This document shows, one piece after another, positions 6,422 through 9,201 of a DNA stretch of 64,000 nt (position 1 is the stretch's first letter; the number at the start of each line of letters is the position of its first letter). The DNA comes from Tenacibaculum aquimarinum (lineage in GTDB: Bacteria > Bacteroidota > Bacteroidia > Flavobacteriales > Flavobacteriaceae), in the NCBI RefSeq assembly GCF_022478115.1, contig NZ_JAKGSC010000001.1:1178001-1242000 (forward strand), written 5' to 3'. The position numbers were made by a program, and so were the translations under genes. A model generated the notes under the pieces. The model did not search any database. It was not told the origin of the DNA and was given only the letters and a program-made list of their open reading frames with translations.

Positions 6422-6793
6422 TCAATTTATATCCACTTCAATAAAAATATCTTGTAACTCTTTTTCTATTGGAAATGATTTTAGAGGTGAAACATTTGCG
6501 CCTCCAGGATTTCCAACAGGTATTTTACCAACAAATGATTTTATGCCTCCAAAGATTAAACGTGGAATTTGCCCAAAGACTTCTTTACTGCTTTTAATTT
6601 TAAAACCAAATTGTAACATTTTCCAATGTACAAAGGTGTGCGCATGCGGATATTTTTGTCCAATTATGTGAGCTCTTTCCAAATGATTCCAAGCTTTTAA
6701 TAAGTTGTTAATTGAATATTCAATTTGGTACTTCTCTAATTCCTTATTGAAATATGGTTGTAGTTTTTTTGGTAGAGAAGTATAGAGTTTCAT
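6422..6793 (-). CDS. DUF3703 family protein
   Basis: A 123-residue soluble protein of the DUF3703 family, with the characteristic LERAHIIGQ stretch near residues 37-45 and a His-rich HAHTFVHWKML stretch near 51-61. The several His residues could bind metal or heme, but no function is established. The gene starts 5 bases after the sigZ stop, so it is probably co-transcribed with the sigma factor. A Gly-rich segment (VGNPGGANVSPLK) lies near 93-105. The family call is from motif memory; a profile search would confirm it. Confidence 0.75.
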   Translation of the reverse strand: MKLYTSLPKKLQPYFNKELEKYQIEYSINNLLKAWNHLERAHIIGQKYPHAHTFVHWKMLQFGFKIKSSKEVFGQIPRLIFGGIKSFVGKIPVGNPGGANVSPLKSFPIEKELQDIFIEVDIN

Positions 6794-6798
6794 TGCAA

Positions 6799-7338
6799 TT
6801 AATTACAAATTTTACAATCTTCTTTCTCTTGAATTTCGCCAACTAAGTTTCCATCATTATTCATTACAAAACCGCAACAATCCATAAAACCTTCCGCAAT
6901 TAATTTACGAGCTCGTTGAATTTGAGATTTTGTAGTGGGTAAACTTTGTTTTAATTGGTTTGCAACTTCTTGTTGCTTTAAGCCTTTAATATCTGACAAA
7001 AACAATGGATCTCTATATTTTTTAGGTAAGTTTTTTAAGATTCCACGAAGACAGTCTTTTTCTGTATGAATGTTTTCTTCAATCTCAGTTTCATTTTCAA
7101 AATTGGCGATTTCAACCGTTTTATTGGCAGATTTCCAGTAATCTAAAATTGAATTTCGTGCAATAGAAAAACACCAAGATTTTAACTTTGTAATGTCTTT
7201 TAACGTCTGTAATTTAGTGTGAATTTTAATAAAAGTATCTTGCAAAACATCATCAGCAATTGTTTTTTCTTTTACTTTACTGATGATAAAATGTTGTAAA
7301 TCTGTATGATATTTAGTCCAAACCTGTTGTGTGGTCAT
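6799..7338 (-). CDS. sigZ: ECF RNA polymerase sigma factor SigZ
   Basis: A 179-residue group 4 sigma factor of the SigZ type. Region 2 covers about residues 8-70 with DDVLQDTFIKIH (29-40) and the -10 recognition helix around KLKSWCFSIARNSILDYWK. Region 4 covers about 97-150 with the helix-turn-helix LKQQEVANQLKQSLPTTKSQIQ. The C-terminal tail carries C154-C155 and C175/C178 (CKIC), a possible metal site of the kind seen in SigZ proteins. No anti-sigma gene is adjacent. A Cys-rich peptide gene lies upstream and a DUF3703 gene downstream in the same direction; the ECF-like promoter at 7549-7576 could drive all three as an autoregulated unit. Confidence 0.87.
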   Translation of the reverse strand: MTTQQVWTKYHTDLQHFIISKVKEKTIADDVLQDTFIKIHTKLQTLKDITKLKSWCFSIARNSILDYWKSANKTVEIANFENETEIEENIHTEKDCLRGILKNLPKKYRDPLFLSDIKGLKQQEVANQLKQSLPTTKSQIQRARKLIAEGFMDCCGFVMNNDGNLVGEIQEKEDCKICN

Positions 7339-7353
7339 TTGTTAGTTATTTAA

Positions 7354-7411
7354 TGTCAGTAGGAGCGTAGTCGAGAACTTATAAGACTTTTCGACTACGC
7401 CCAAGGTGACA
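7354..7411. repeat. REP-like inverted repeat between Cys-rich peptide gene and sigZ
   Basis: A perfect 10-bp stem GCGTAGTCGA (7365-7374) / TCGACTACGC (7391-7400) is flanked by an outer pair TGTCA (7354-7358) / TGACA (7407-7411). Such GTAGTCGA hairpins with TGTCA ends are widespread in flavobacterial intergenic DNA. Here it lies inside a probable operon, where the hairpin could stop or slow transcription or protect the upstream message. Confidence 0.8.
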
Positions 7412-7415
7412 ATAG

Positions 7416-7523
7416 TTAACAATTACAATTGTTGCATGTACAAGTATCACAAGTACAATTTTTACATTCTCCTTTTACACATTCTAAACATGTGCAGCTA
7501 CATTGGTTTTTATAATTTTTCAT
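7416..7523 (-). CDS. Cys-rich metallothionein-like peptide (35 aa)
   Basis: A short frame from ATG at 7523 to TAA at 7416-7418 encodes 35 residues with 11 cysteines (positions 8, 10, 12, 15, 20, 23, 25, 28, 30, 33, 35). They are arranged as CxC, CxxC and CxxxxC pairs (CSCTCLEC, CKNCTCDTCTC, CNNCNC), and there is no aromatic residue except Tyr4. This is the composition of a metallothionein, so binding of soft metals (Cu, Zn, Cd, Ag) is likely. It is preceded by an ECF-type promoter 19 bases or so upstream and followed by sigZ. At this size it is easily missed by gene callers. No known metallothionein family matches from memory. Confidence 0.75.
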   Translation of the reverse strand: MKNYKNQCSCTCLECVKGECKNCTCDTCTCNNCNC

Positions 7524-7548
7524 GATTCTAAATTTATAGTTCACTTAA

Positions 7549-7576
7549 TAGACGTAGAAATTACAAAAAAGATGCA
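7549..7576 (-). promoter_or_regulatory. ECF-type promoter upstream of the Cys-rich peptide gene
   Basis: On the minus strand TGCATC (7571-7576) and CGTCTA (7549-7554) are separated by exactly 16 bases. CGTCTA is the classic -10 element of ECF sigma factors and TGCATC agrees with the TGAAAC-type -35 at four of six positions. The ATG of the peptide gene lies 25 bases downstream. Because sigZ is in the same unit, autoregulation by SigZ is the simplest reading. Confidence 0.5.
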
Positions 7577-7587
7577 AAAAGAATGGA

Positions 7588-9201
7588 TTAATATACTCTT
7601 TCTCCATTTACAAACGTAGAAACGGCTTTTGTTTTTGGTATTTTAGGTCCATCAACTTTCATAATATCTTGACTTAAAATAACAAAATCGGCAAATTTAC
7701 CTACTTCAATAGAACCTTTTTCATTTTCTTCAAAATTAGCATAAGCAGCCCAAATTGTCATTCCTTTTAAGGTTTCTTCTCTGGTTAAAGCATTTTCCAT
7801 TTGATATCCATTTTCAGGATAATTATTAATATCTTTTCTAATTGAAGCCGCATAAAATGTTAAAAACGGATTTACCTGTTCTACAGGAAAATCTGTTCCT
7901 AAAGCAATTTTACCATAATTATTTAATAGCTTTTTAAATGCATAAGCGCCTTTTATTCTTTCTTTACCAACTCTATCTGTTGCCCAATACATATCTGAAG
8001 TTGCGTGTGTTGGTTGAACTGAAGGCAAAATATTATCAAAATTTTTAAAATCTTCAGATGAAATTATTTGTGCATGTTCAATTCTCCAACGCCTGTTTTT
8101 AGCATTTTTTAAAACGTCTTTATAGGTTTTTAATAACCAGGTATTTGCAGAATCTCCAATAGCATGTGTATTCATTTGAAACTCTGAATTAGCAATTTGT
8201 TTTGCAATTTCCTGATATCTTTCAGGAGTATAAATTAATGCCCCAAAATGGTTATCTCTATCTGAATATGGTTTACGCATAGCAGCACCTCTGGAACCTA
8301 AAGCACCATCTCCGTAAATTTTAAACGAACGTACATTTAATCTATCTGTTTTAGAAATACCTTTTTTTATAAAGTAATCAATTTCTTTTTGATTATCTCC
8401 AGAAATCATTGCGTAAATACGCATTTTTAAACTTTTTGCTTGTTGTAAACTGTCAATTAATTCAATGGTTTCTTTATTTATTCCTGCATCATCAACAGTT
8501 GTTAATCCGTAAGAAAATGATATTTTTTGTGCATCTAATAACCCCTGTATAGCTTCTCTTTTTGATGTTTTTGGAAACTTAACAAAATCCATTGCATTAT
8601 CAATTAATACACCTGTTAATTCACCATTCTTGGTAATAATTTCTCCCCCAGAAACTTTGGTGTTTTTGGTAATTCCTGATAAATCTAAAGCGGCTTGATT
8701 AACTAATAATGCATGACCATCAACTCTACCAATAGCAACAGGAATTGTAGGGAATAACTTGTCTAGTTTTTCTTTTGTAGGAAACTCTTTAACATTCCAA
8801 TCATTTTGATCCCAACCACGTCCTGTAATAAAGGTTGTGTTTTTTTCTTTTTGAAAAGCAACTAACTTTTCTAACACTTCATCATAACTTTTTGTGCCTT
8901 CTAAACTTACTTTTTGTTGCTGAAGGCCCATTCTGTAAAAATGACAATGTGCATCAATTAAACCTGGAACAATTGTTTGGTTTTTTGCATCAATAATATT
9001 ATCCGATTGGTATTTTTTCTGAATTTCTTCAGTACTACCAATTGCAATAAATTTTCCATTATGAATTGCAAAAGCTTCTGCTTTCTCAAATTCTGCATTA
9101 ACAGTATATGTATTTGCGTTAATAACTATAGTATCTACAGATTCTTTGTTACAAGAAACTGAAACTAATAAAATACTTAATATGTAAATAATTTTTTTCA
9201 T
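7588..9201 (-). CDS. exported amidohydrolase (YtcJ/AtzC-like)
   Basis: Metal-dependent amidohydrolase of the Amidohydro_3 type (537 aa). It starts with a lipoprotein signal (LLVSVSCNK, lipid Cys near 17), so it is probably anchored in the periplasm or outer membrane. The metal-binding HCH is in VPGLIDAHCHFY near residue 80; GDGALGSRGA near 300, NTHAIGD near 347 and ALGTDFPVEQ near 437 are the other conserved loops. Its start overlaps the stop of the DoxX-like gene by 4 bases (ATGA). The true substrate is unknown; YtcJ-type enzymes act on amide or ester bonds of small molecules. Confidence 0.88.
   Translation of the reverse strand: MKKIIYILSILLVSVSCNKESVDTIVINANTYTVNAEFEKAEAFAIHNGKFIAIGSTEEIQKKYQSDNIIDAKNQTIVPGLIDAHCHFYRMGLQQQKVSLEGTKSYDEVLEKLVAFQKEKNTTFITGRGWDQNDWNVKEFPTKEKLDKLFPTIPVAIGRVDGHALLVNQAALDLSGITKNTKVSGGEIITKNGELTGVLIDNAMDFVKFPKTSKREAIQGLLDAQKISFSYGLTTVDDAGINKETIELIDSLQQAKSLKMRIYAMISGDNQKEIDYFIKKGISKTDRLNVRSFKIYGDGALGSRGAAMRKPYSDRDNHFGALIYTPERYQEIAKQIANSEFQMNTHAIGDSANTWLLKTYKDVLKNAKNRRWRIEHAQIISSEDFKNFDNILPSVQPTHATSDMYWATDRVGKERIKGAYAFKKLLNNYGKIALGTDFPVEQVNPFLTFYAASIRKDINNYPENGYQMENALTREETLKGMTIWAAYANFEENEKGSIEVGKFADFVILSQDIMKVDGPKIPKTKAVSTFVNGERVY

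Follow-up and report, generated by a model that had tools for sequence, protein, structure and literature searches.

The question raised by this locus is whether a minute, cysteine-rich reading frame next to the gene for an ECF sigma factor in Tenacibaculum aquimarinum is a genuine gene under the control of that sigma factor, and whether the sigma factor could itself perceive metals. The original prediction, made for a stretch of 64,000 nucleotides (the window), regarded the frame, sigZ and a DUF3703 gene as one metal-stress unit behind an ECF-type promoter, with SigZ perhaps sensing metal through its own cysteines.

Organization of the locus

All parts of the unit are located on the minus strand, in the order promoter, peptide gene, 77-nt spacer, sigma factor gene, 5 nt and DUF3703 gene. 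The putative ECF-type promoter, TGCATC-TTTTTTGTAATTTCTA-CGTCTA (7549..7576), is just preceded by the stop of an amidohydrolase gene (ending at 7588) and lies 25 nt before the ATG of the peptide gene (7416..7523, ATG at 7523, stop codon TAA at 7416-7418), which codes for a metallothionein-like peptide of 35 aa with 11 Cys in CxC and CxxC pairs. The spacer (7339..7415) contains a strong hairpin (-25.3 kcal/mol, z -6.0) and is followed by the gene for a SigZ-related ECF sigma factor of 179 aa (6799..7338) and by that for a DUF3703 protein of 123 aa (6422..6793), which contains a cluster of conserved His and whose gene has no promoter motif of its own. The Cys-rich frame, sigZ and the DUF3703 gene are all positioned as originally predicted, with gaps of 77 and 5 nt, and the expected TGCATC-N16-CGTCTA promoter ahead of the peptide gene turned out to be the sole TGCATC-N15-17-CGTCTA in the window. 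The pattern TGCATCTTTTTN8-14GTCTA occurs only once in the whole genome, namely at this locus. Scans for sigma-70 and terminator consensus sequences yielded no excess over shuffles, and no anti-sigma gene is present beside the unit, a statement which applies to the locus only.

The SigZ family, first named in Bacillus subtilis, is by far the best family for the sigma factor of the window, yet the scores stay below the cut-offs of both models (NF007215, 169.8 bits with a cut-off of 212; TIGR02959, 159.5 bits with a cut-off of 168.65). The four Cys residues predicted near its C-terminus (C154, C155, C175, and C178) are present, in addition to C56 and C96, and five of these (C96, C154, C155, C175, and C178) are invariant across 27 aligned orthologues. 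They form a tail of the pattern CC-x19-CxxC, with Cys96 located before region 4. In a structure model of the sigma factor, the tail is poorly resolved (pLDDT 61-77), too poorly to reveal a metal site, and none is given in the model summary.

Conservation of the peptide, the pairing and the promoter

Ten shuffled versions of the window did not contain any Cys-rich frame of the peptide's kind; the two other Cys-rich frames in the real window were taken for noise. Across 41 aligned peptides, drawn from 43 distinct ones, nine of the 11 Cys columns are invariant and the remaining two are conserved in at least 90% of the sequences. A set of 69 distinct peptide sequences gave a pN of 0.166 vs. a pS of 0.765 for all codons; because this set had been selected for Cys spacing, the invariance of the Cys residues exists there by construction, and the figures for the non-Cys codons alone (pN 0.286 vs. 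pS 0.639) are those free of selection bias. As judged from these values, purifying selection is acting on the peptide. An origin of the frame as a chance ORF is ruled out by its conservation, by pN being lower than pS, and by the conserved promoter and spacing described below.

Sequence searches of Pfam, NCBIfam and PDB gave no match for the peptide: no Pfam family was hit by any of the 41 family members at E values up to 10, a PDB search with the peptide profile remained empty, and so did a plasmid search with one peptide of the family. The structural-class criteria for metallothioneins are satisfied, i.e., a short chain, a high content of Cys in CxC and CxxC pairs and conserved Cys spacing, and no catalogued metallothionein family was matched (Pfam for the 41 members, PDB). 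The bacterial metallothioneins SmtA and MymT are very short proteins in which about 30% of the residues are Cys, arranged as CxC and CxxC pairs; the peptide resembles them in its shortness and its Cys pairs, but there is no sequence match to known metallothionein families. Metal binding by the peptide is an inference without binding data. A peptide of the same type was also observed as an orphan in a Flavobacteriaceae MAG (L128, 3995-4102), with no sigZ match within 8 kb and no promoter motif.

Peptide and sigma factor are strictly paired. Within 58 genomes of the genus (that of the window included), both the peptide and a sigma factor orthologue, called at an identity of at least 66%, occur in 41 and neither of them in 17, and the peptide gene lies upstream of the sigma factor gene on the same strand at all 41 loci, at a distance of ~170 nt or less in 40 of these. 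A profile scan of a further genome collection, which shares several organisms or contigs with the same-genus set, revealed 21 peptide loci, 20 of which have sigZ just downstream. They are distributed over Polaribacter, Tenacibaculum, Lutibacter, Kordia, Lacinutrix, Flaviramulus, Flavicella, Aureibaculum, and other genera; the close relatives of the window unit are found in Polaribacter, such as P. aquimarinus (L109) with a sigma factor of 85% identity. The original prediction would have been refuted by the frame missing beside sigZ in related genomes or carrying stop codons there, but it is intact at 41 of 41 loci of the genus and paired at 20 of the 21 further ones. The search it had proposed, for short Cys-rich frames and the promoter motif upstream of sigZ in relatives, recovered both (41/41 and 62/65, respectively).

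Some deviating arrangements were seen. In one genome (G005), a PEMT/ICMT-family methyltransferase gene, whose product we take to resemble CzcN, is inserted between the peptide gene and sigZ (L052, 5394-5999), and in another (G004, L005/L045) a second sigZ copy, broken by stop codons, lies ~1 kb downstream of the intact one. Distant sigma factor paralogues of 31-41% identity occur in some genomes of the genus; in the only two examined (L044 and L047), the tail follows another pattern, C-x19-C-ELP, and a Cys-rich mini-gene is absent.

The promoter analysis was based on 65 distinct upstream regions, which remained from 68 after omission of three with another peptide type (L082, L089, and L097). 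In 62 of these, at least 15 of the 16 fixed positions are matched at one fixed spacing, while the best shuffled score was 13. In 97 genomes of the genus, the pattern TGCATCTTTTTN11-13GTCTA was found in 80 copies in 61 genomes, compared to three for the reversed-pattern control, and no copy was present in 29 genomes without the peptide. According to their listed places, 60 copies precede the peptide gene, nine lie upstream of that position by another 381-391 nt and the remaining 11 are at other places, which leaves 69 of 80 at the peptide-sigma locus. Six of the nine copies further upstream were confirmed as putative DUF3703 promoters, these six being the only ones read. Two of the three off-locus copies that were examined lie inside an upstream reading frame, and the one at L225 stands ahead of a gene for a CDF cation transporter (226.6 bits, cut-off 82.35), its end 15 nt from the start codon. 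By these counts, the putative promoter is conserved and largely specific to the locus. That SigZ drives the TGCATC-N16-CGTCTA promoter is inferred.

The hairpin between the peptide and sigma factor genes also recurs. After subtraction of five rows without a detected sigZ start and six with a spacer under 30 nt, 54 spacers of at least 30 nt were left from the 65 rows, and 48 of them contain a hairpin with a z of -3 or lower, as compared to three of 68 control stretches; six rows have a peptide-sigma spacer of just 2-3 nt. The stems appear by eye to be unrelated in sequence between lineages, and a few are terminator-like. The hairpin of the window lacks the T-run of a terminator. It is regarded as a candidate for an attenuator or an mRNA-stabilising end, and we infer that such spacers may serve to yield more peptide than sigma factor.

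DUF3703 and other genes behind the promoter

The assignment of the third gene is clear, since its product matches PF12487 with 142.3 bits (cut-off 22.3). The expectation of a His-rich protein was not borne out, with only five His in 123 residues, but all five are clustered in a single stretch of 20 residues (37-56), and 32-33 of 33 relatives retain H37, H42, H52, and H56. The proposed three-gene unit stands with respect to the pairing of the peptide and sigZ, but not with respect to DUF3703 as a fixed member, which is ruled out: its gene is located upstream of the peptide gene at 20 of 41 loci, downstream of sigZ in the window only, and was not found at the other 20. This count relies on the window protein as query with E values up to 1e-3, 30 of the 41 loci cover only ~1.5 kb per side, and divergent copies may have escaped. 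DUF3703 is an optional add-on, and its place in the window is unusual. Most of the distinct DUF3703 genes of the relatives (22 of 26) carry their own copy of the putative promoter, which begins at a distance of 39-49 nt from the start codon; near matches to the motif are visible by eye in the remaining four. In a phylogenetic tree, the window DUF3703 groups with a DUF3703 from an Adhaeribacter plasmid (support 95/88), apart from the 26 copies of the relatives, whose fork has a support of 91/82; the deep part of the tree is unsure because of long branches. This separate placement suggests that DUF3703 may have entered the unit on at least two occasions.

Matches to DUF3703 were found in 99 plasmid records. 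Metal-resistance genes lie within 6-7 kb of DUF3703 in all six contexts viewed, which were hand-picked among 30 of these records: one contains CusA/CzcA with a P-type ATPase and Fur, one a P-type ATPase and a CDF protein at 3 kb or more, one a MerR-MerTP-CadR-CDF cluster, two contain cation transporters and one ArsR with a P-type ATPase.

A view beyond the genus is provided by a SigZ-family search in 148 genomes of the phylum and a sigma-alignment search in 395 genomes of the class, which together gave 45 loci after the window genus and duplicates had been dropped. These were split into 36 and nine loci at a threshold of three tail Cys, which was our own choice. Of the 36 Cys-tailed SigZ-family loci, 15 are accompanied by a Cys-rich mini-gene at up to 1 kb, which at 13 of them is encoded on the same strand and no more than 160 nt away; a promoter by a looser pattern is present at 19, either feature at 23 and both at 11, while 21 are without the mini-gene and 13 lack both. 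At the nine loci with fewer than three tail Cys, six of which are weak SigZ matches, there is neither a mini-gene nor a promoter. Of 30 control ECF loci (TIGR02985), one has a mini-gene, on the opposite strand, and none has the promoter, which rules out the motif as a general ECF promoter. The enrichment of mini-genes (15/36 vs. 1/39) corresponds to a Fisher p of 3e-5. The mini-gene at L093 is of the window type, whereas the others vary from lineage to lineage, both in length and in the spacing of their Cys; they lie up- or downstream of the sigma factor gene, and several of the downstream ones have a promoter copy of their own. In four weaker SigZ-family matches (L098-L101), the sigma factor has a short Cys-rich tail with DCxC at its end, and both promoter and mini-gene are lacking; these matches perhaps represent another class of metal-sensing ECF sigma factors. 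As judged from the available genomes, the pairing of the sigma factor with a Cys-rich output is far wider than the particular make-up of the window.

The genes led by the motif in these lineages are diverse. In 19 hand-picked genomes, 18 of which have a SigZ-family match, with G087 as the exception, TGCGTCYTTTYN10-11CGTCT occurs in 16 copies in 12 genomes (reversed control, one). Seven copies lead the sigma factor gene itself, four a Cys-rich mini-gene and one an ArsM gene (L197, 326.7 bits, cut-off 263), and the remaining four lead, one each, a PAP2-family gene (L193), a gene for a 116-aa protein before sigZ (L198), no clear gene (L199) or, 5 kb from sigZ, a gene for a secreted-like protein of 487 aa (L206). 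A gene-blind scan of 296 genomes of the phylum with TGCGTCTTTTTN10-11CGTCT gave 10 matches in nine genomes and none for the reversed control, and all 10 lie within ~0.7 kb of a SigZ-type sigma factor gene. The scan is not wholly independent, since six of these genomes (G160, G182, G212, G240, G317, and G368) had already been seen, but a SigZ-type sigma factor is also nearby in all three genomes new to the motif (G337, G358, and G385). The sigma factor has a Cys-rich tail in eight of the nine scan genomes. The motif leads genes for arsenite methyltransferases (NF008823, 363.8 and 303.7 bits, cut-off 263) at L239 and L240, whose sigma factors pass both SigZ cut-offs, so that ArsM is found behind the motif in three genomes in total; at L238 it leads ArsI/CadI (145.2 bits, cut-off 116), with an ACR3 arsenite exporter (402.5 bits, cut-off 282.8) encoded behind it, and at L236 a MATE-like transporter, as assigned by eye. 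The exception is L237 (G337), where the SigZ models are the best ones but below cut-off, the full Cys tail is missing and the motif leads a PhzF-family gene; this case does not fit a metal reading. That not all motif-led genes are related to metals, as seen from the PhzF-family gene, the PAP2-family gene at L193, the MATE-like transporter gene at L236, the genes at L198 and L206 and the copy without a clear gene at L199, counts as evidence against such a reading.

Proposed metal sensing and alternative explanations

The comparisons establish a link between the SigZ-type sigma factor, the Cys-rich peptide and the putative TGCRTCTTTTT-N-CGTCT promoter, supported by conservation, by co-occurrence and by genome-wide specificity, and they show that the same predicted promoter type leads DUF3703 in relatives and other detoxification genes in other lineages. 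The metal-stress role proposed at the outset gains independent support from the plasmid contexts of DUF3703 (six of six) and from the promoter-led genes for arsenite methyltransferase, ArsI/CadI-ACR3 and CDF proteins. We consider it likely that the whole represents an autoregulated unit for metal(loid) detoxification that has no anti-sigma gene next to it and in which the sigma factor itself senses the metal, with both the sensing and the metal binding being inferred. An excess of a thiophilic ion, which may be Cd, Zn, As(III), Hg or Cu and remains undecided, would bind to the CC-x19-CxxC tail, perhaps together with Cys96, and render the sigma factor competent for its own promoter. RNA polymerase would then yield much peptide mRNA and less sigZ-DUF3703 mRNA past the spacer hairpin, and the peptide would chelate the ion as a metallothionein, removing the inducer and closing the loop. 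The arsenic genes point to As(III), the neighbours of DUF3703 and the CDF gene to Cd, Zn, Pb or Hg, and no choice is made between them. The dependence on SigZ, the induction by metal, the sensing by the cysteines of the sigma factor, the chelation by the peptide and the closure of the loop are inferences, for which there are no expression, metal-binding or genetic data. Also weighing against the proposed unit are the Cys-tailed loci outside the genus that lack the mini-gene (21/36) or both features (13/36), the 11 off-locus motif copies in the genus, the orphan peptide at L128 and the departures from the CorE pattern described below.

Precedents for such a sensor exist. As far as the accessible parts of the literature indicate, CorE and CorE2, two ECF sigma factors of Myxococcus xanthus assigned formerly to ECF44 and now to ECF238, have a Cys-rich C-terminal domain, lack an anti-sigma factor and answer to Cu or Cd/Zn (PMC3107203; PMC8999054). 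A response to metals is also discussed for ECF238 (PMC8103513). The window sigma factor resembles them as an ECF sigma factor with a C-terminal Cys-rich extension, no linked anti-sigma factor and putative targets in metal detoxification (PMC3107203; PMC8999054; PMC9023288), but the targets named for CorE and CorE2 in the text available are copper oxidase and ATPase genes, with no metallothionein peptide. It satisfies the CorE-like criterion of a Cys-rich extension after region 4, but its tail, CC-x19-CxxC, does not match the spacing of CorE (C-x4-C-x2-C-x-C) or CorE2 (CC-x3-C-x2-C-x-C) (PMC9023288), and the CXC motif in the linker between regions 2 and 4, which according to the accessible text is kept only in former ECF44 members (PMC8999054), is absent, with Cys96 as the single Cys before region 4. 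Because of the different tail spacing and the missing linker motif, it is not classed as CorE-like; it may well work like CorE, and it probably senses metal via its own Cys tail, as inferred from the sequence. A further parallel, again from partial text, is OrbS of Burkholderia cenocepacia, an on-board iron sensor that is tuned to metal, without an anti-sigma factor, by four Cys following closely on region 4.2; unlike the proposed case, OrbS is inhibited by Fe(II), through its tail, and its output consists of siderophore genes (PMC9023288).

Among the alternative explanations, one would assign the sensing to the peptide, which in its metal-free or zinc-loaded form would act as a mini anti-sigma factor holding SigZ until metal or oxidation frees it. 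The strict one-to-one pairing and adjacency of both genes would suit this arrangement, and zinc-dependent anti-sigma factors are a known theme, according to the part of the literature available (PMC8999054). We nevertheless think it improbable, as the tail of the sigma factor is itself strongly conserved and the partners in other lineages are differently spaced Cys-rich peptides or arsM, arsI or PAP2-family genes; partners as varied as these fit outputs better than one conserved anti-sigma partner. A unit for thiol or disulfide stress, with the sigma tail as a redox switch, the peptide as a thiol or zinc buffer and metals of secondary importance, is suggested by the vicinal Cys in the tail and by the existence of redox-controlled sigma systems (PMC8999054, seen in part). 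We think it equally improbable in view of the metal(loid) genes among those linked to the promoter (ArsM, ArsI/CadI-ACR3, CDF) and of the metal-resistance genes near DUF3703, and none of the promoter-led genes examined was recognised as coding for a thioredoxin or a peroxidase. Control of the sigma factor only by its amount or by an unlinked anti-sigma factor, with a merely structural Cys tail and another signal, is hardly to be expected: although nothing shows directly that the tail senses metal and the absence of an anti-sigma gene is established beside the unit only, the Cys tail and the output tend to go together, because the SigZ loci with few tail Cys had neither mini-gene nor promoter (0/9, including the six weak SigZ matches).

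The proposed self-sensing unit also differs from known metallothionein systems in its control. SmtA is run by the repressor SmtB. MymT is run by the repressor RicR, as stated in the accessible part of PMC10141476. Compared with these repressor-controlled metallothioneins, the peptide of the window is instead encoded beside a sigma factor. No description of such a sigma-peptide unit was found in the openly licensed literature, as far as it was available, nor was anything found there on DUF3703 or on SigZ with Cys-rich features. In the parts available, a table from 2023 gives the function of SigZ of B. subtilis merely as "ECF" (PMC10141391), and a paper on Acidithiobacillia lists SigZ without stating a metal role (PMC12194929).

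Since few metal-sensing sigma factors (CorE, CorE2, and OrbS) have been studied, to judge from the partial sources, the unit is of interest as a compact sigma-peptide loop. Its sharp promoter motif can be used for finding the regulon in other Bacteroidota genomes; the unit offers a set of very short candidate metallothioneins, of which the window type has no Pfam family, and gives a first hint at the role of DUF3703. In a wider reading, for which we see the arguments as evenly balanced, Cys-tailed SigZ proteins would be phylum-wide one-protein metal(loid) sensors with one promoter type, which have repeatedly acquired unrelated, possibly newborn metallothionein peptides as their main output, or arsM, arsI-ACR3, CDF or DUF3703 genes instead. 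A turnover of the peptide partners under a constant promoter would represent a natural case of repeated peptide-gene origin, and the phylum-wide sensor, if true, would give the SigZ family a function.
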